Source: a virus. From it: a stretch of DNA of 42,747 bases. The stretch is from positions 1 through 42,747 of IMG/VR virus record IMGVR_UViG_3300010370_000070; one strand, written 5' to 3'. The notes under the pieces are model-generated. The model saw only the letters and a list, made by a program, of their open reading frames with translations, ran no database searches and was not told where the DNA came from. The position numbers and the translations under genes are program-made. Shown here piece by piece: positions 3,403 to 40,730 of the stretch (the stretch's first letter is position 1; each line of letters starts with the position of its first letter).

Positions 3403-3708
3403 TTACCTTTCTCTCTGTCTTTCTTCTTTTAAAAACTCTTTAAAATTATCCTTAAGCTCATTTAAAGCAGCAATAACCATGCGAAAATTCTCTTCAATTT
3501 TAATTGTTGATTTTTCTAAGCCTTTAATATCTTTGCCCTGTTCATCAGTCCTAACTTCTAAAGCTAAAATCTTTTTATCTAAAACTTTTAATTGTGGCTC
3601 TATGACTAAGTTGTAAAAAATAATAAGTACAGTTAATTCACCACCAATGATTGAACCAACAAGCATTAACAATTCATAGGATTTAAAGATGTACTCTGTT
3701 TCCGTCAT
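3403..3708 (-). CDS. Membrane-anchored coiled-coil protein (spanin-like candidate)
   Basis: The 101 residues give one N-terminal transmembrane helix (about 13-35), then a long charged heptad region to the end (VIEPQLKVLDKKILALEV onward, rich in Lys/Glu). This is the architecture of i-spanins (Rz) and of some phage membrane-tethering proteins. No nested or adjacent outer-membrane lipoprotein is seen, so the spanin idea is unproven. The start overlaps the stop of the collagen-like gene (ATGA), showing coupling. Confidence 0.6.
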   Translation of the reverse strand: MTETEYIFKSYELLMLVGSIIGGELTVLIIFYNLVIEPQLKVLDKKILALEVRTDEQGKDIKGLEKSTIKIEENFRMVIAALNELKDNFKEFLKEERQRER

Positions 3709-4541
3709 TTTAATACTACAGTAACACCGATTTGCTCTTCTGCTTTACCCGATAAGAAAACTTTTAATAAACCGCCTTCAACTTTAACTAAATAATTTAA
3801 ATTCTCAGGATTAACAGGTAATGAAGCACCATTCGTGTTAGACTTTATTCTGTTTTCGCCTAAAAGATTTTGTATTAAGACTCTCAGCTCAGCATCAAAA
3901 AAAGTACCTTGAGACCCCATAGCTGTAATTTGAATTAAAGCTTTGTAGTTAGACTGCTTTAATTCAAATGCTGCTACTTGGGTAAGCTCGCTGCTAATTA
4001 AAATTGTTTCTTTTGTCGGATATTCAGCACCATCTTTACCCTTTTCGCCTTGCTCGCCCTTCTCCCCTTTCTCGCCCTTTAAATCCCCTAAATTATTTTT
4101 CCATTCTTCAAATAAAGAAGCTAATTCTTTTTTCGCAAAATCATAATCAAATTCTGCATTTAAGCCATCTTTACCATTAATGCCATCTTTACCATCTTTA
4201 CCATTAATGCCATCTTTACCATTTTTGCCATTAACACCATTCTTGCCATCAAGACCATTCAAGCCATCTTTGCCATCAAGTCCGTTTAAACCATCCTTGC
4301 CATCAAGTCCGTTTAAACCATCTTTGCCATCAGCTCCATTTAAGCCAGCTTCCCCTTGCTCGCCCTTGTCGCCTTTTTGACCCTTGAGCTTATCTACTTT
4401 TTTCGCTAAAAGCTTTTCAACTTCTTGATTGAAAACGTCTAAAACCCTTTCTTTTAAAGGCTCTTTAAATTCTTCGCTAAATAGTTCACCTATTTGAACT
4501 AGTCTGTTTTCTATTTTTGCTGCACCCGCTCCGCCTAACAT
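3705..4541 (-). CDS. Collagen-like tail fibre or surface protein
   Basis: The 278-residue product has an N-terminal helical region (about 1-53), a collagen triplet tract of Gly-X-Y (about 54-128), a helical spacer (129-152), a second short Gly-X-Y tract (153-171) and a beta-rich C-terminal domain. The first tract holds tandem copies of a 9-residue unit LNGLDGKDG, visible as 27-bp DNA repeats. Collagen-like tracts trimerise in phage fibres and often vary in length. It sits at the end of the structural block with other adhesion-type genes. Confidence 0.85.
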   Translation of the reverse strand: MLGGAGAAKIENRLVQIGELFSEEFKEPLKERVLDVFNQEVEKLLAKKVDKLKGQKGDKGEQGEAGLNGADGKDGLNGLDGKDGLNGLDGKDGLNGLDGKNGVNGKNGKDGINGKDGKDGINGKDGLNAEFDYDFAKKELASLFEEWKNNLGDLKGEKGEKGEQGEKGKDGAEYPTKETILISSELTQVAAFELKQSNYKALIQITAMGSQGTFFDAELRVLIQNLLGENRIKSNTNGASLPVNPENLNYLVKVEGGLLKVFLSGKAEEQIGVTVVLK

Positions 4542-31591: not shown

Positions 31592-32285
31592 ATTTAAATA
31601 TATCTCAGCGGGACTTTATCCTTCTAGCTCTCACTAGCCTGCATTGAAAACTCTAGTCTTTCGGTTTAATCACATAGATTTTTATGTGGTTAGTTATTGC
31701 TTGTTTAAATCGGTTTAAATCAATTTCTTTTTATTCTTGGGATGATTATGGCTTTAATAAGGTTTTCTTTTAACCTGTGGCAGAATAAAGGGGTTTTGTG
31801 AAGTTTTCTAGTTGGTTGTTAGGTTGGTTTATTACATTGCTGAAATTTGAAATTTTTTATGTGTAGCGAGAGGGGATGCAGTGATAATTTAAAGGGGTGG
31901 CATGGGGTAAAGGATGTTACCCGTAAATACTTTTCTGCTTTTATTACTCTAGAATTACCCTTATACAGTGCCATATTCAAGATAACATTATATTATCTTA
32001 AGTAAGAACGTGATTGTAGAGCCATTTCAGTATGTTGTTAAAGATAATATACAGAAATTAAGGGGTAGCTACCGAGTATTGGGGGGTATCTTATAGTGAT
32101 TAATGATTGATGACTGATGATCTCTCTCTTATATATTCTTTATCGCTTGCATGTGTTACCCTGCTCGACACATTAACATCATTTCTCATTCTAAACAAAA
32201 ACGAGAAACGAATAAAACTCATTCTCAGAAAGCAACTATTCAATTTTACCTACCTACTAGTAGGTAAAAGTTATACCTAACAATT
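31592..32285. other. Divergent control region, non-coding
   Basis: No credible gene is visible between the leftward gene at 31549 and the repeats at 32286. The stretch holds a 10-bp hairpin (TAATCACATA 31667-31676 with TATGTGGTTA 31683-31692, one wobble pair). A TTTAAATCGGTTTAAATC repeat lies near 31705. A 10-bp inverted repeat (TTTTACCTAC 32244-32253 with GTAGGTAAAA 32260-32269) has CTACTAG at its centre. It is the switch point between the leftward and rightward transcription units. Confidence 0.6.
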
Positions 32286-32380
32286 AAGCCTAAAGTGGAC
32301 TATAGGGTTTAATTAATATAAAGTCTAAAGTGGACTATAGGGTTACAGTAGTAATAAAGCCTATAGTGGACTATAGGGTT
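32286..32380. repeat. Three 24-bp dyad-symmetric direct repeats
   Basis: Copies at 32286-32309, 32321-32344 and 32357-32380 share AAGYCTAWAGTGGACTATAG followed by GGTT and are spaced 35-36 bp apart. The third has perfect dyad symmetry (CCTATAG-TGGA-CTATAGG); copies one and two have one and two mismatches in the arms. They lie about 230-330 bp before the early promoter. They could be repressor operators or replication iterons; the ACTATAGGG core also resembles T7-type RNA polymerase promoters. Confidence 0.8.
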
Positions 32381-32468
32381 ATAAAGGCTTTCTAATCAAC
32401 ATTCCTTACTTATCGGCGTAACGATTAAAAACAAGCGAGGCTAGTATTAGTATCTTTTTGTTGTTTTA

Positions 32469-32834: not shown

Positions 32835-32871
32835 GACCAAGACCTAAGCAAGTCTTTAAACTGCTTAAGGA
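32835..32871 (+). promoter_or_regulatory. Type 1 structured leader, copy 1
   Basis: Contains AAGAC-CT-AAGCA-A-GTCTT-TAAAC-TGCTT then AAGGA. AAGAC can pair with GTCTT and AAGCA with TGCTT in interlocked order, an H-type pseudoknot layout whose second stem abuts the ribosome site of the gene at 32879. Confidence 0.6.
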
Positions 32872-33041: not shown

Positions 33042-33075
33042 GATGACCTGAGCAAGTCTTTAAACTGCTTAAGGA
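33042..33075 (+). promoter_or_regulatory. Type 1 structured leader, copy 2
   Basis: Contains GACCTGAGCAAGTCTTTAAA then CTGCTTAAGGAG. The first stem is shorter here (GAC/GTC) while the second (AGCA/TGCT plus a wobble) is kept. It precedes the gene at 33084. Confidence 0.6.
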
Positions 33076-33570: not shown

Positions 33571-33606
33571 CCAAAGACCTAGCAAGTCTTAAAACTGCTT
33601 CAGGAG
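33571..33606 (+). promoter_or_regulatory. Type 1 structured leader, copy 3
   Basis: Contains AAGAC-CT-AGCA-A-GTCTT-AAAAC-TGCT then TCAGGAG. Both stems (AAGAC/GTCTT and AGCA/TGCT) remain possible despite base differences outside them. It precedes the gene at 33615. Confidence 0.6.
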
Positions 33607-33614
33607 ATAAAAAA

Positions 33615-34028
33615 ATGACAATTAAAATACAAATCGATAAAAAAATATTAGAAGCTGATAGCTTGGCGGTATTAGCTTATAGTGTCGAGAAGGAAATTAA
33701 CAAAATACTAGAAATTAAAGAAAGTAGTTACCTTGCAACTCTCTCAATTAAAAGCATGTTACAGGGCTTGCAAGTCTATTCTAATTATCATAAAAATCTT
33801 TCAGCTGATGATTATGAACATTATTGTAGCAATGGTACTTTTAAATTAAACCTACACGAGGAATTAGATGACCCAAAATTAGATTTTCCTCTGGTGGTCT
33901 CACGTTCCATAGATTTATGGCTACAAGGTACTAATGAACCTAAGTTAATAGTCTCTTTCAGAAATGACAATAACCAGCTAGTCATAGATGATGAGAACTT
34001 GAATAAACTAGATTCATACTTTGCTTAA
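33615..34028 (+). CDS. Early protein, 137 aa
   Basis: Begins MTIKIQIDKKILEADSLAVL. Helical first half, then an acidic beta-rich part (LHEELDDPKLDFPLVVSRSI) and a C-terminal segment FRNDNNQLVIDDENLNKLDS. No domain recognised. Ribosome site CAGGAG is in the type 1 leader and a type 2 leader follows the stop. Confidence 0.6.
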   Translation: MTIKIQIDKKILEADSLAVLAYSVEKEINKILEIKESSYLATLSIKSMLQGLQVYSNYHKNLSADDYEHYCSNGTFKLNLHEELDDPKLDFPLVVSRSIDLWLQGTNEPKLIVSFRNDNNQLVIDDENLNKLDSYFA

Positions 34029-34112
34029 AACTATCAGCTAACCGATTCTACACCATCTCAACGGCATGGTGTAGAACTGGTAAGCACCAGTTAAAGAAAA
34101 AAGGAAAATAAA
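34029..34112 (+). promoter_or_regulatory. Type 2 structured leader, copy 1
   Basis: Conserved CTATCAGCTAACCG, then hairpin 1 TTCTACACCAT (34046-34056) with ATGGTGTAGAA (34066-34076), then hairpin 2 AACTGGT (34075-34081) with ACCAGTT (34086-34092), then AAAGAAAAAAGGAAAA before the ATG at 34116. Confidence 0.75.
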
Positions 34113-34115
34113 AAA

Positions 34116-34799
34116 ATGAATAACTACATAGGTGTCTTAATAAAAAGAAAAAATGGCATATTGACTAATGCTACTTGCTTAGGAATAAGAGAGTTAATTA
34201 AGAACAATAGCCATAACTCGGTATGGTTACAAGCAAATGGTAAATGTTCTTACGGACACTATGCTAAAAAGCATACTGATGGTTATCTATATAGCCATGA
34301 AGAGTATACGGATAATTGGGATGGTGCAGTATATTCAACAACATTAAAATATTATCCTACCAGTAAACCAGTTCAAATGACAAAATGGCAACTAGAAAGA
34401 GATCAGATTGAAAAGAAAGAAGATTTACTAGAATCAGCTAAGATATTTTTACGTAACTTGAGCAAAGAATTAATAGAAATAGAAAAATTCAATCAGCTAG
34501 TATCTGAAGGAATTAAGCAAGATAAAAAAATAACGGGTAGTGAATTAGTATTTTTAGCTGATTACTACAAGGTAGATATTCCCATTAGAACTCGTGGTTA
34601 TTATTTAAATAAATTACACAGGGTAACAGCTACTGAGATTAAAGATAAAGAAGTTTCAAGGATTAGTTACCTTGCTGAAGGTAAATTAAATAGAGATATT
34701 CTTTATAGAACATTAGATTTGATCATAAATGAAATGTATCCAGAAGAGGTTACAGTAAAAGAGCAAGAAACTTTCAATCGATTATTTAAAGTTGCATAG
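34116..34799 (+). CDS. Early protein, 227 aa
   Basis: Begins MNNYIGVLIKRKNGILTNAT. The first 90 residues are aromatic and beta-rich (WLQANGKCSYGHYAKKHTDG, YLYSHEEYTDNWDGAVYSTT); the rest is helical and charged, with a long helix (about 90-140). Largest of the early unknowns. No catalytic motif recognised. Flanked by type 2 leaders on both sides. Confidence 0.65.
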   Translation: MNNYIGVLIKRKNGILTNATCLGIRELIKNNSHNSVWLQANGKCSYGHYAKKHTDGYLYSHEEYTDNWDGAVYSTTLKYYPTSKPVQMTKWQLERDQIEKKEDLLESAKIFLRNLSKELIEIEKFNQLVSEGIKQDKKITGSELVFLADYYKVDIPIRTRGYYLNKLHRVTATEIKDKEVSRISYLAEGKLNRDILYRTLDLIINEMYPEEVTVKEQETFNRLFKVA

Positions 34800-34880
34800 A
34801 ACTATCATCAAGCTAACCGCTTCTAGCATATCTAATAGCATATGCTGGAACTGGTTATCACCAGATAAAGGAAAAAGGAA
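34800..34880 (+). promoter_or_regulatory. Type 2 structured leader, copy 2
   Basis: CTATCATCAAGCTAACCG, hairpin 1 TTCTAGCATAT (34821-34831) with ATATGCTGGAA (34840-34850), hairpin 2 CTGGT (34851-34855) with ACCAG (34860-34864), then AAAGGAAAAAGGA. Stem bases differ from copy 1 but still pair. Confidence 0.75.
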
Positions 34881-34883
34881 AAA

Positions 34884-35291
34884 ATGAAAATGATTAAAAT
34901 TAATTATGAAATAGATATAGATTTAATAGTTTCTTTTTTAAAAAGAGCTACACACAGTAGGAATAAGTCTAAAAAAAATAATTCTATAGAATTAACTATA
35001 GAAGACTGCCATGAAATAAGTGAGCTACTTCACGATTTTACTCCAAAGAGAATCTTCTCTCAAACCAATAGCGAATGTGAATTAATAGATACTATGTTCG
35101 CTAAAGAAGTCTTAAGAAAACTTCCATTTTTAGCTAAGTGTGAAGGATTTGAGATGGAAAACGGGCTTTTAAGTTCTCTTTCCTATAATTTATTTCAGTT
35201 TTTAGCTGGAAATTTTGTTTTAGGTGAAACATCTCGTTTAGAATCTGTCAAAACAAAAGCCAATAATAGTTTTTTAGAATTTATTAAATAA
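34884..35291 (+). CDS. Early protein, 135 aa
   Basis: Begins MKMIKINYEIDIDLIVSFLK and is helical with a basic stretch (HSRNKSKKNNS) and two Cys in the centre. Preceded by a type 2 leader. No family recognised. Confidence 0.65.
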   Translation: MKMIKINYEIDIDLIVSFLKRATHSRNKSKKNNSIELTIEDCHEISELLHDFTPKRIFSQTNSECELIDTMFAKEVLRKLPFLAKCEGFEMENGLLSSLSYNLFQFLAGNFVLGETSRLESVKTKANNSFLEFIK

Positions 35292-35307
35292 AAGGAAAAA
35301 TAAACAA

Positions 35308-35628
35308 ATGACAACAATGGAACACACAATAAAAACAACAATAGAAACTATCGAAGGCGTAAGCGATTACAGCTTATTCGCAGTGGACGAAGCAATTGAC
35401 TCGCTGGAATTCCAAAAAAGATTAAGTTATGGCTATGCCAAAAATAAACTTAATTTTGAAATAGATTTAATTAATTACTTTAAAAGTCATCCAAATTTCA
35501 ACAATATGTGGAACTGTTATAGCTTTGATGAGGAGGACAGCGAAGAGCCAATTAACGTAGAATTTGAATTTGAATTTGAGCTGGAAGATTTACCGCAACA
35601 CTTGCAAGATGGTTACGAAAGTTTTTAG
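35308..35628 (+). CDS. Acidic early protein, 106 aa
   Basis: Begins MTTMEHTIKTTIETIEGVSD and ends with an unusually acidic tail rich in Glu/Asp/Phe (EEDSEEPINVEFEFEFELED). Such acidic proteins can mimic DNA or bind basic host proteins, but that is only a possibility. It has a simple AAAGGA site and no structured leader of its own. Confidence 0.65.
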   Translation: MTTMEHTIKTTIETIEGVSDYSLFAVDEAIDSLEFQKRLSYGYAKNKLNFEIDLINYFKSHPNFNNMWNCYSFDEEDSEEPINVEFEFEFELEDLPQHLQDGYESF

Positions 35629-35706
35629 AACTATCATCAAGCTAACCGATTCTAGCACTTACTAATCCAAGTGCTGGAACTGGTTATCACCAGATAAAGG
35701 AAAAAA
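35629..35706 (+). promoter_or_regulatory. Type 2 structured leader, copy 3
   Basis: CTATCATCAAGCTAACCG, hairpin 1 TTCTAGCACTT (35650-35660) with AAGTGCTGGAA (35669-35679), hairpin 2 CTGGT (35680-35684) with ACCAG (35689-35693), then AAAGGAAAAA. It precedes the short gene at 35711. Confidence 0.75.
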
Positions 35707-35710
35707 ACAA

Positions 35711-35845
35711 ATGACAATATTCAAAACACAACACGATTTAATGAATGATGAGTATTACTTAGAGATACTGGGAATTAGAGTATCCAATGCGATAGCTAAT
35801 TTCTTGGTTAGATTAGGAGTTATTCAAGAGAACGAAAATATTTAG
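35711..35845 (+). CDS. Short early protein, 44 aa
   Basis: Reads MTIFKTQHDLMNDEYYLEIL, then a helical hydrophobic part (GIRVSNAIANFLVRLGVIQE) and an acidic end. The type 2 leader and AAAGGAAAAA ribosome site directly upstream argue it is a real gene despite its length. Function unknown. Confidence 0.6.
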   Translation: MTIFKTQHDLMNDEYYLEILGIRVSNAIANFLVRLGVIQENENI

Positions 35846-36149: not shown

Positions 36150-36360
36150 CAGCCAAAATTTTTAATTTCAGTTGCCTGTATTATAAAGGCAACTGGTTCT
36201 GATGGTAAAACAAATGACAACAGCCAAAATTTTTAATTTTGGAATAAAGTTTTAATTCCCTCGAATAAGGGGGAATTAAAAGCAGTCAAGTAATCCTTGA
36301 CAGCTCAACTATTCGAGATTATCGAATACTTGGATAATCAAGCCTAGAGCTACTATCATT
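36150..36360. repeat. Hairpin-rich segment beside the origin
   Basis: A 19-base direct repeat CAGCCAAAATTTTTAATTT occurs at 36150 and 36221. Perfect hairpins are CAGTTGCC (36169-36176) with GGCAACTG (36188-36195) and TTTTAATTCCC (36250-36260) with GGGAATTAAAA (36271-36281). A smaller TATTCG/CGAATA stem lies near 36310. None carries a T-run, so they are not ordinary terminators. Confidence 0.6.
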
Positions 36361-36385
36361 AGGTTGAGTAATCTAGAGTAAATAG

Positions 36386-36669
36386 TTTTCCGTCTTTTCC
36401 GTCATATCTTTTTACTTTCCGTCAAAATGACGAAAGCTATAATACAAGCCTAGTCCGCCTATCCAGTCTTTTCCGTCTTTTCCGTCATTTCCGTAATGAA
36501 TAAGTGAAGTTATAAATAATAATATATATATACATATTGATTAATTATTTCATTTATTTATTTTTCTAGACGAAAATGACGAAATGACGGAAAAACTCTC
36601 GATAAGTATACCTAGTCTATATTATAGAGTCCGTCAAACTATGACGGAAAACACTCAAATGACGGAAAA
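36386..36669. other. Putative replication origin with opposed iteron clusters
   Basis: A left cluster (36386-36495) has about six copies of TTTTCCGTCA or near variants in one orientation. A right cluster (36569-36669) has about six in the opposite orientation (TGACGGAAAA, TGACGAAA). Between them is a strongly AT-rich core (about 36498-36566) with a long AT repeat. This is the plan of an iteron origin with a melting region. It lies about 280 bp before the helicase-like gene. Confidence 0.7.
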
Positions 36670-36819
36670 CTAGAAACAGATGAGCAAGCTAGTCAAATAT
36701 CCTGCAAGCTCGACAGAGCAGCTCGTAAGAGCGGGGGTATTTAAGTTGCGGCTCAACATAAAAACAAATTAAACTAATTACTAAGTTACTTGTTAGATAA
36801 ATCTGATATATATATAAGT

Positions 36820-36949: not shown

Positions 36950-38692
36950 ATGAAAAATGAACAAGCTTTATTGGGTGCTATTCTTCAGCACGCAGAATGT
37001 AAGTATTTAATCTATGAATTAAAAGCTGATTATTTTTCAAATGACGATAATCGCAAAGTCTTTTTAGCTATGCTGGCATTGCATAATGCTAATGAACCTA
37101 TAGAAATATTCACAGTTAAAAGCAAGGTAGAAGAACTAAATTATTCTGATCTGCTTGGATACATTGAACTATTAAGAGACGTAGCAGATATTCCATCTAA
37201 TGTTAGATTCACTCTTAAAAGAATTTTCAAGGCATATAAAGCTAAAGAAGAAAAAAGAATTAAAAGCGAAATAAAATTTCACCAAGATGATTTACCCAAA
37301 GTTCAATCCTTAATTCAAGAGTTTAATGAGCTTAACAAATTAATCGCATTAGACGAAATTAAATTACTCGGTAAAAACAAGGAATCCCAAGCTCAATTTT
37401 GTTTGCAGGATATACTGCCATCACCATTATATGCCTATCTATATGGCATTTCCTCAGTTCCATACAAAGACTTCCCAGTAGAAGCAGCATTCAGTTTATT
37501 TCTTTCCATAGTGGGCAGTCTAGCGGGTACTAAATTCACTATTTCACACCGAAGACACAAAGAACATGCTTTTTGGTGGTCTATGGTGGGTTTACCCGTA
37601 GGATCAGGCAAAACACCTATCTTAAATAACCTAATGAAGCCCTTAACAGTCTTGCAGTACGAAGCTTTAGAAGTTTATAAACAGCAGCTTAAAGAATTTC
37701 AAGAAGTTAAAAAGAAAAAGAAAAAAGATACTTCTCTTGAGGAATTTCAAGAGGAATTACCAGAACCTAAAAGAAAAAGATTTTATTTATCTGATTCAAC
37801 AATGGAGACTACATTGAAAGCTCACTCAGATAACCCTAATGGGCTTTTATGGGTCAAGGATGAGCTTAAAGGTCTCTTTAATTCTCTTGGTGCTTATAAG
37901 GGTGGACGGGGAGAAGATAAAGAAACATTACTGTCACTAGGTGCAGGTACTTTTATTTCAGTAGCTAGAAAAGAAACAGATATTGAACTCGTCAAATCGG
38001 CTATTAGCCTCACTGGTGGGATTCAACCTCAAGTATTAAAAGATTTATATTCCAAAGATGGAGATAAAGATAACGGCTTATGGCAGAGATTCGCCTATAT
38101 TATCCACGAAACAGTATCAAGAGAAAAAAACCCAGACGATGTAGTCTTAAATGATTCGATATTAACTAAGCTCTATTCCCATATTATTAGCTCAGAGGGT
38201 GCTAGCTTAGTCTTTGCTGATTATGATTATGTCGAATGGGTATCAGATTATTTTAATGAAGAGATAGATAAAGCTCCAACACCAGCAATGCAAGCATATT
38301 ACACTAAATGCTTTGGGTTTTTCTTAAGGCTTTCTATTTTGTTGCATATTCTTGATTCGCACTTCTCTTATCTGTCTTACGATAGACCAGTTAGCAGAAC
38401 TACCAGCGAAAATGCTTTTTCCTTAATTGTGGCTTACATTTCCCATGCTGAAAAACTATTTTATGTTAAAACCATCAAAAGCAAAGATCAACAATTTATC
38501 AATAAAATTCTTGATAAGCCTTTAGCTAAAAGAACAATTAATGAAATCGCTAAAACTATTACTCAACGTGTTGATAAACCTTCTGATTATGCCCGCTATC
38601 TATTTGAGCTTATGCAAGAAGCAGGCTTAGGTACTATCAACAAAACCAACGGCAAAAACTGGCAATTCGCTTTAAAGGGAGAAACAATATGA
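36950..38692 (+). CDS. DnaB N-domain / DUF3987 helicase-like replication protein
   Basis: The 580-residue protein joins two parts. Residues 1-100 match the DnaB N-terminal domain (NEQALLGAILQHA, ADYFSNDDNRKVFLAMLALH). Residues about 155-560 match DUF3987 with Walker A GLPVGSGKT (214-222) and Walker B-like GLLWVKDEL (298-306). The C-terminal region (NEIAKTITQRVDKPSDYARY) looks like a winged helix. No RecA-type DnaB core or zinc primase domain is present, so DUF3987 probably supplies the ATPase motor. It is the only evident replication enzyme and lies beside the origin; other functions would come from the host. Confidence 0.8.
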   Translation: MKNEQALLGAILQHAECKYLIYELKADYFSNDDNRKVFLAMLALHNANEPIEIFTVKSKVEELNYSDLLGYIELLRDVADIPSNVRFTLKRIFKAYKAKEEKRIKSEIKFHQDDLPKVQSLIQEFNELNKLIALDEIKLLGKNKESQAQFCLQDILPSPLYAYLYGISSVPYKDFPVEAAFSLFLSIVGSLAGTKFTISHRRHKEHAFWWSMVGLPVGSGKTPILNNLMKPLTVLQYEALEVYKQQLKEFQEVKKKKKKDTSLEEFQEELPEPKRKRFYLSDSTMETTLKAHSDNPNGLLWVKDELKGLFNSLGAYKGGRGEDKETLLSLGAGTFISVARKETDIELVKSAISLTGGIQPQVLKDLYSKDGDKDNGLWQRFAYIIHETVSREKNPDDVVLNDSILTKLYSHIISSEGASLVFADYDYVEWVSDYFNEEIDKAPTPAMQAYYTKCFGFFLRLSILLHILDSHFSYLSYDRPVSRTTSENAFSLIVAYISHAEKLFYVKTIKSKDQQFINKILDKPLAKRTINEIAKTITQRVDKPSDYARYLFELMQEAGLGTINKTNGKNWQFALKGETI

Positions 38693-39090
38693 ACGACCTA
38701 GCAGAAATCCAAGCAGAACTAAAAGAACTCCATCAAGAGTTTTTAGATTACGCTGAAAAAATTAAAGATGTTAGCCGTAGACTAGGCTTACTGGTCAAAG
38801 ATTCCGATAACGCTATCCTGAAATGGCAAGTACACCATTACTGGCTAAACAATGTTGATCGCAAATTTAAAATCCTAGACGAAGAGCTAGATAATGAGAT
38901 CGCAGCTCCATTTAGTGCTTTACCACCAGTTACAGCAAACCCTATCTACAAGGACTTAACCCTTAAGATCGAGGCTTTCAGGCTCTTGAATCCTGACATA
39001 GATGAGCTAGAAGCACAAAAGAGAATTTCTAAGATCGTTAAAGAGCATGTCCAAAGCAGAAGGCACAAGCAGGGAGAGGAAAAACAATGA
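38689..39090 (+). CDS. Coiled-coil protein after the helicase gene, 133 aa
   Basis: Starts MNDLAEIQAELKELHQEFLD at an ATG overlapping the helicase stop (ATGA). Nearly all helical, with heptads in residues 1-45 and a basic C-terminus (IVKEHVQSRRHKQGEEKQ). Tight coupling suggests it works with the helicase-like protein, perhaps as a loader or partner. No known family. Confidence 0.6.
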   Translation: MNDLAEIQAELKELHQEFLDYAEKIKDVSRRLGLLVKDSDNAILKWQVHHYWLNNVDRKFKILDEELDNEIAAPFSALPPVTANPIYKDLTLKIEAFRLLNPDIDELEAQKRISKIVKEHVQSRRHKQGEEKQ

Positions 39091-39814: not shown

Positions 39815-40287
39815 TTGAACTAAATTGCAGTTACGAGGAATCTAAAAAAATTTTTGAACTGGGCTATGATTTTAGTAAAGTTTGCTGGAAAAGCTTGTAT
39901 GAGTATAGAGATCAATACAACTTAAACCAGACGTTTATTAGAATACACCTCCACGGAACAGGATTATCTTTAACATCTATCGAAGATGAGATAAGTTACC
40001 GAATGAGCAAGTATAGGGTTGTTGGTTTAGTTATTCCAATCATCCCAAAAGCAGCTTTGGAGGCGTGCTTGCCCTTAAAGCTAGATGATTGCTACTGTAT
40101 ATCATTGCAAGAGCCTAAAATAATAAAAAAGTGCTTTTTTAGAAGTATGTATGAGGTTTATGTAAAATCTAAATATTATGACGATCAGTTATATTTAGAT
40201 TTCAATAATGCCTATGAATTGTTCCTATGGCTACACGAAAACTACCCAGAAGAGCTTAAAAAAAGATTTGATGAGGTGATGGCATGA
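39811..40287 (+). CDS. Hypothetical phage protein, 158 aa
   Basis: Begins MIELNCSYEESKKIFELGYD and ends with NAYELFLWLHENYPEELKKR, a phrase I associate with small uncharacterised phage proteins near lysis or replication genes. Contains six Cys, high for this genome. Overlaps both neighbours by ATGA. No function assigned. Confidence 0.6.
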   Translation: MIELNCSYEESKKIFELGYDFSKVCWKSLYEYRDQYNLNQTFIRIHLHGTGLSLTSIEDEISYRMSKYRVVGLVIPIIPKAALEACLPLKLDDCYCISLQEPKIIKKCFFRSMYEVYVKSKYYDDQLYLDFNNAYELFLWLHENYPEELKKRFDEVMA

Positions 40288-40730
40288 TTAACCAATCATT
40301 ACTACTATTCATAATCAGCTTGGAAGGCTTCTCCTCTTGTGCTTATTGGGATGTGTCTCAGTGGTCTAATGGCTTTGGTACTAAGGCTACCAATAAATGG
40401 GAATGTGTAAGCAAAACCGAGGCTAAAAGCCGCATGGTTAAACATTTAGAGCTTGATAGCAAGCATGTACTATCACTATTCCCAAGTGCCAAGCAGAATG
40501 AGCATGACGCACTTGTAAGTTATTGCTACAACGCAGGCAGACATGGCTGCACTAAAGCCGTTAAGCTTGCTGCTAATGGAAATAAGGACGGTGCTAGCTG
40601 GGTAATGAGACAGAAAGTAAACAAAGGTCTAGCTTCTGAATCAGGACTTAAAAAAAGAAGACTTGCAGAAGTCGCTCTTTTAAATAAAGAAGATGAAAAG
40701 AAAAAATATATTTATCAGGAATATTCTTAA
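40284..40730 (+). CDS. GH24-type phage lysozyme (endolysin)
   Basis: The 148-residue protein has E14 (LEGFSSCAYWD), D23 eight residues later and WSNGFGT, aligning with the T4-lysozyme E-x8-D-x5-T catalytic triad region. Here the Thr position appears to be Ser28 and the loop is one residue shorter. The later part (NEHDALVSYCYNAGRHGCTK) matches the conserved second lobe. It hydrolyses glycan strands. No signal peptide. It is the second cell-wall enzyme in the genome and is placed in the rightward early/middle unit. Confidence 0.85.
   Translation: MINQSLLLFIISLEGFSSCAYWDVSQWSNGFGTKATNKWECVSKTEAKSRMVKHLELDSKHVLSLFPSAKQNEHDALVSYCYNAGRHGCTKAVKLAANGNKDGASWVMRQKVNKGLASESGLKKRRLAEVALLNKEDEKKKYIYQEYS

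Follow-up and report, generated by a model that had tools for sequence, protein, structure and literature searches.

What is the small structured segment that recurs between the genes of an uncultured phage, and why does it precede so many different genes? The window, meaning the whole stretch of DNA analysed, is a 42,747-base uncultured phage record (IMGVR_UViG_3300010370_000070) whose genes include a sigma factor domain, an ERF recombinase, a DnaB/DUF3987 helicase, and a lysozyme, and whose terminase has only distant relatives among named phages. A collagen-like Gly-X-Y repeat protein of 278 aa is encoded among its structural genes (3705-4541, minus strand). From 32.6 to 36.2 kb, small same-strand ORFs stand in a row with short gaps between them and without strong family matches; we infer that this row is co-transcribed as one polycistronic operon, and the genes bearing the element are presumed, from position only, to be early. 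Upstream of the operon (32283-32388) lie three tandem copies of a repeat of about 35 nt that contains the near-palindrome CCTATAGTGGACTATAGG; these are candidate operators. Three gaps of the row hold the hairpin element (34029-34090, 34800-34864, and 35629-35693), exactly where a preliminary description had placed it, before the genes at 34116, 34884, and 35711. At these joints, the distance from stop to start codon is 82-87 nt, between ORFs of the same strand. The features are as follows.

34029-34036, plus strand: copy 1, leader-A motif AACTATCA, directly 3' of the stop codon TAA (34026-34028)
34037-34044, plus strand: copy 1, GCTAACCG
34037-34085, plus strand: copy 1, long hairpin, in which hairpin 1 is flanked by GCU(A)ACCG and UGGU(A)AGC
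34046-34076, plus strand: copy 1, hairpin 1, arms TTCTACACCAT (34046-34056) and ATGGTGTAGAA (34066-34076), 11/11 pairs
34077-34090, plus strand: copy 1, hairpin 2, CTGGT-AAGC-ACCAG (CTGGT 34077-34081, ACCAG 34086-34090), competing with the long stem
34116, plus strand: start codon ATG after copy 1, ribosome site AAAGAAAAAAGG
34116-34799, plus strand: ORF after copy 1, 227 aa, no Pfam match and no strong PHROG match
34800-34811, plus strand: copy 2, leader-A motif AACTATCATCAA, directly 3' of the stop codon TAG (34797-34799)
34812-34859, plus strand: copy 2, long hairpin, made up of hairpin 1 and the UAACCG/UGGUUA helix
34821-34850, plus strand: copy 2, hairpin 1, arms TTCTAGCATAT (34821-34831) and ATATGCTGGAA (34840-34850), 11/11 pairs
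34851-34864, plus strand: copy 2, hairpin 2, CTGGT-TATC-ACCAG (CTGGT 34851-34855, ACCAG 34860-34864), with ATG at 34884
34884-35291, plus strand: ORF after copy 2, 135 aa, no Pfam or PHROG match
35308-35628, plus strand: ORF before copy 3, 106 aa, 83% homology to contig L187 ending within the copy-3 motif
35629-35640, plus strand: copy 3, leader-A motif, directly 3' of the stop codon TAG (35626-35628)
35641-35688, plus strand: copy 3, long hairpin
35650-35679, plus strand: copy 3, hairpin 1, arms TTCTAGCACTT (35650-35660) and AAGTGCTGGAA (35669-35679), 11/11 pairs
35680-35693, plus strand: copy 3, hairpin 2, CTGGT-TATC-ACCAG (CTGGT 35680-35684, ACCAG 35689-35693), with ATG at 35711
35711-35845, plus strand: small ORF after copy 3, 44 aa

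The AAAGGA-type ribosome site once ascribed to all three copies does not fit copy 1, in which AAAGAAAAAAGG is found rather than AAAGGA directly after the stem.

Three more copies were identified in IMG/VR phage contigs, namely L006 (core from 4451), L026 (14566), and L060 (3746, minus strand). A short element pattern matched 64 IMG/VR contigs, three of which were real and the rest chance, and a scan for hairpins outside the motif gave chance matches only, apart from L026 and L060. The covariance model that had been proposed for finding further copies recovered six full copies in total among the records searched, scoring 96-109 bits, after which the scores dropped to 26 bits. In the same records, all six occupy one position of one motif and none lies elsewhere. 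No Rfam family matched the window above its gathering score, the sub-threshold matches being at chance level, and the named-phage collection searched with the region as DNA gave no match. As for the host, neither GTDB genomes searched with the element pattern (no match, and hence no prophage or host clue) nor an endolysin search, which gave no host relative, pointed to one.

The pattern of change among the copies argues for selection on RNA. Pairwise, the window copies differ at 4, 4, and 2 arm positions changed on both sides, and across the six copies five stem pairs of hairpin 1 carry two-sided changes, which, the copies being closely related, amount to about five compensatory events and not dozens. 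The two-hairpin structure is paired in 99% of pair cells in the six copies, falling to 23-46% when the partner is slid by 1-3 columns as a control, and the folding energy lies 3.2 to 5.5 standard deviations below dinucleotide shuffles, the window copies ranging from 3.5 to 5.5. U.G wobbles on the mRNA-sense strand occur in four of the six copies and the sense strand is predicted to be more stable than the antisense strand in five, both of which point to the coding-strand RNA rather than the DNA. Judged from these patterns, the element is real and RNA-level. The preliminary description thus holds good in its conserved flanks around differing arms in the three window copies, in its roughly five stem positions changed with pairing kept, and in the selection for RNA structure that it drew from them. 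Its two hairpins fare unequally, hairpin 1 being backed by covariation, whereas the pairs of hairpin 2 (CTGGT/ACCAG) are invariant across the six copies; since they never vary, hairpin 2 has no covariation support and is argued for by conservation. The invariant nucleotides are those of the stem base and hairpin 2.

How the element folds is less simple than two hairpins in series. Hairpin 1 can be extended, past one A.C or C.C mismatch, by UAACCG/UGGUUA into an imperfect long hairpin with a stem of 17-18 bp, for GGT(T/A)A(T/G)C, which overlaps hairpin 2, is the pairing partner of the conserved upstream GCTAACC. In partition functions at 37 °C, the long hairpin has a probability of at least 0.96 in the three window copies and in L026, about 0.5 in L060, and 0.3 in L006, the last two being near balance with the two-hairpin form. 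The equilibrium fold of the window copies is therefore predicted to be mostly one long hairpin, with hairpin 2 as a competing helix. A possible switch had been suggested in the preliminary description; the competing fold is upheld, but the direction is not, because the two-hairpin form is predicted to come near balance only in L006 and L060 and to be outweighed by the long hairpin in the window copies and L026. The conserved core starts at the 5' strand of the long stem (GCTAACC) and ends at the 3' strand of hairpin 2 (ACCAG), with divergent sequence outside it on both sides. As these bounds coincide with one strand of each, both helices seem to be under constraint, covariation supporting hairpin 1 only.

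The setting of the element is as telling as its fold. The hairpin segment of about 50 nt lies within a shorter intergenic motif, TAR-AACTATCATCAAGCTAAC...AAGGA-ATG, which is found without hairpins in relatives such as L193 (TTTTTAA-AACTATCATCAAGCTAAC-AAAAAAAGGAAAAAAG...ATG); other empty gaps were seen in L006, L060, L187, L192, L286, and L355. From CTATCA to the start codon, the distance is 77-85 nt in full gaps versus 29-37 nt in empty ones. In nearly all copies, the motif starts 0-2 nt past the upstream stop codon, an exception being the full gap of L006, where the upstream ORF extends into the element. The six copies precede genes that have no relation to one another, namely ORFs of 227, 135, and 44 aa in the window and the MKIKINNK (L006), MKIKLIKG (L026), and MSVREITKK (L060) genes, and the same gene may come with or without the element: the MKIKINNK gene has a full gap in L006 and an empty one in L060 and L355, and the MSVREITKK gene has a full gap in L060 and an empty one in L286. 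Likewise, the gap after the MKIEFKKV gene is full in L026 and empty in L355.

Homology between the phages is bounded at the same joints. This holds for the blocks shared by L006 and L060 (L006 4507-4913, 93.6%), L026 and L355 (L026 14344-14565, 89.6%), L060 and L286 (5224-5475 of the reverse-complemented L060, 93.7%), the window and L187 (35313-35641, 83%), and the window and L355 (33031-33622, 84%), and the slots are occupied by different genes in different phages. With the motif anchored to the stop codon and interphage homology starting or ending there, these gaps are, on the comparison of these genomes, exchange joints for gene cassettes. Such presence and absence at joints where cassettes are exchanged could also be produced by a mobile or selfish palindrome, or by a DNA-level recombination aid kept by DNA processes, whose arms would match through template-switch correction and not through selection on RNA. 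This is improbable, given that the six copies share the same motif position and none lies elsewhere, that arm correction should have erased the wobbles and the 1x1 mismatch still present, and that no transposase partner was found (Y1_Tnp was sought in the six records, some of them fragments).

Mosaicism is also visible further along the window. Genes 38689-39090 (133 aa, no assigned family) and 40284-40730 (lysozyme) are 80-95% identical in several relatives, in which the neighbouring helicase is just 30-56% identical, a contrast between adjacent genes that is a sign of strong mosaicism. An AT-rich, origin-like region with direct and inverted TTTTCCGTC / GACGGAAAA repeats lies 5' of the DnaB/DUF3987 helicase gene (36380-36670), and the same place in L006 (5430-5670) holds other repeats, of the TTTGCAGAAA type, so that the iteron set seems to have been swapped between these relatives. 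The sequence GCCTAGAGCTACTATCATT, which includes part of the leader-A motif, is found in the non-coding region 5' of the helicase gene in the window (36340-36375), L006 (5385), L192 (5512), and L193 (3968).

The word "leader", used in the preliminary description, is too specific for an element that does precede genes and yet lies directly 3' of the upstream stop codon, before unrelated genes, and optionally before the same gene. It had carried the idea of translational control, in which a phage- or host-encoded RNA-binding protein would bind the conserved flanks (GCTAACCG, CTGGT.A.CACCAG) and gate ribosome access to several genes. Such an operator would account for the invariance of the stem base and hairpin 2, for AAGG beginning 3-4 nt past hairpin 2 in five of the six copies, and for an element common to several unrelated genes, but the Shine-Dalgarno site lies outside the conserved stems and is predicted to be largely open at 37 °C. 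The placement after the stop codon, the unrelated downstream genes, and the optional occurrence make a gene-tuned operator less likely than a generic intercistronic function, and the operator is, on the whole, unlikely.

A second type of element was found in the same kind of gap, with three copies in the window.

32841-32865, plus strand: leader B copy 1, compact pseudoknot
33045-33069, plus strand: leader B copy 2
33576-33599, plus strand: leader B copy 3, one nt shorter

Leader B has the motif NNN-CYRAGCAN-N'N'N'-NNN-AAAC-UGCU and has no sequence relationship with the hairpin element, although both occupy the same slots; the window gene at 33615, a homologue of MKIKINNK, is preceded by leader B. 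That the two fill the same slots supports a generic function of the joint. A fixed pattern gave at least 120 matches in IMG/VR, and leader B occurs in more than 100 diverse phage contigs, including L194-L311, L348, L355, L356, and L380, as well as in a Lacticaseibacillus phage, where two annotated genes flank it. When stem 1 was left free, all 121 distinct matches among the loci fetched were complementary in stem 1; 12 of them had a stem 1 other than GAC/GTC, and seven different stem-1 sequences were represented among the 121. By this comparative evidence, with its strong covariation, leader B is a compact H-type pseudoknot. Ninety of 124 copies lie at most 45 nt after an ORF stop, against 8% in the control, and the distances peak at 6 nt. 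A role as a readthrough or frameshift signal is not supported, as the frames close within a median of at most 7 codons after the stop. The window copies had no match in Rfam and literature text searches for leader B strings returned nothing relevant; the exchange joints have led to a widespread phage pseudoknot without an Rfam match, which may represent a phage-wide 3'UTR or intercistronic RNA not described before.

The stop anchor itself invites another explanation, namely a gene-end structure like the REP palindromes, in which a hairpin after the stop codon would block 3' exonucleases or stall the terminating ribosome and so act on the upstream gene. The 0-2 nt spacing of nearly all copies and the stop anchoring of the interchangeable leader B, at a modal distance of 6 nt, would both fit. 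The anchor, however, is a property of the short motif, whose copies lacking hairpins are just as closely tied to the stop codon. Most REPs are described with GTAG/CGTC end tags, and the hairpin element, although it shares with REP/BIME palindromes the repetition of hairpins just past stop codons, differs in that these tags are absent at both core ends, no Y1 transposase (RAYT) was found, and the copies are few and confined to one motif position. A REP-like role is accordingly rather unlikely.

The hypothesis tentatively preferred, which falls somewhat short of being probable, is that of a gene-independent intercistronic site for mRNA processing or stability, acting like the early RNase III sites of T7. 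On this view, the element would be a gene-independent RNA structure inserted between the cistrons of a polycistronic phage operon, at a joint anchored to the stop codon. Of its folds, the imperfect long hairpin of 17-18 bp would be the first to form in nascent mRNA and would serve as the substrate of a double-strand-specific host nuclease of the RNase III type, whose cut would separate the upstream from the downstream message. Once cut, the downstream mRNA might fold CUGGU-N4-ACCAG back into a hairpin, placed at its new 5' end or close to it and a few nucleotides ahead of the Shine-Dalgarno site, where it may protect the message from 5'-end-dependent decay. The element would hence tune mRNA segmentation and stability and would sense neither a ligand nor the downstream gene product. 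Sequence is a poor guide to RNase III substrates. A phage-encoded RNase III (PF14622) was not found in the six records, some of them fragments, though the host enzyme would suffice. An intrinsic terminator is ruled out, no T-run following either hairpin, as is CTATCAT as a promoter, the -10-like T not being kept (TATCAG, TATCAC, TATCAA). Promoter-like sites in the region were not above shuffles, with none on the plus strand at the three joints.

Small accessory genes are exchanged among phages all the time, and each import needs correct expression inside an existing operon. A broader and more doubtful proposal is that the joints are interchangeable stop-anchored RNA parts of gene-cassette operons, comprising the optional bistable hairpin and the phage-wide compact pseudoknot. 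By insulating the mRNA of each cistron, such parts would allow any gene to function once imported, and they would constitute a class of post-transcriptional element not yet described in phages. Full and empty gaps before the same gene offer natural matched pairs for the effects of a joint on mRNA processing, stability, and translation.

By its predicted function, the element would fall among the phage intercistronic RNA elements, a kind already known, and three such systems bear comparison. The putL/putR sites of HK022 are two adjacent stem-loops of about 70 nt, and antitermination by put involves contact with the beta' zinc-binding domain of RNA polymerase. The present element is of similar total size (about 60-70 nt), lies on presumed early transcripts, and may take up two adjacent stem-loops in one of its alternative folds, so that a put-like antiterminator, in which two adjacent nascent-RNA hairpins would modify RNA polymerase, could be envisaged. 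The put stems are, however, long and bulged, and lie just downstream of PL or about 270 nt into the PR transcript (PMC9378689), whereas here three copies stand in one operon, the stems are unbulged, stem 1 changes freely, and the long hairpin is favoured, which leaves this reading very improbable. The promoter(early) stem-loop cassettes (PeSLs) of T4-type phages (Arbiol et al. 2010, Comeau et al. 2014, as cited in PMC4503421) are also repeated structured intergenic modules at which accessory genes are exchanged; a PeSL has a strong sigma70-type early promoter and a stem-loop that is an intrinsic terminator, but the module here has no recognised early promoter and no terminator-type U-run. From the T7 early RNase III sites, the element differs in being an optional insert in a stop-anchored motif with a conserved competing 3' hairpin, in matching no Rfam family, and in belonging to a phage that shows no sign of T7 kinship, and RNase III cleavage is here only predicted. 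It nevertheless resembles these sites (R1.1 and others) as an imperfect intercistronic hairpin in polycistronic phage mRNA, 5' of a ribosome site, in its long and near-continuous imperfect stem of about 17-20 bp, the long form being predominant in four of the six copies, and in being independent of the gene, present several times per operon, and not essential, as the T7 sites are under standard conditions.
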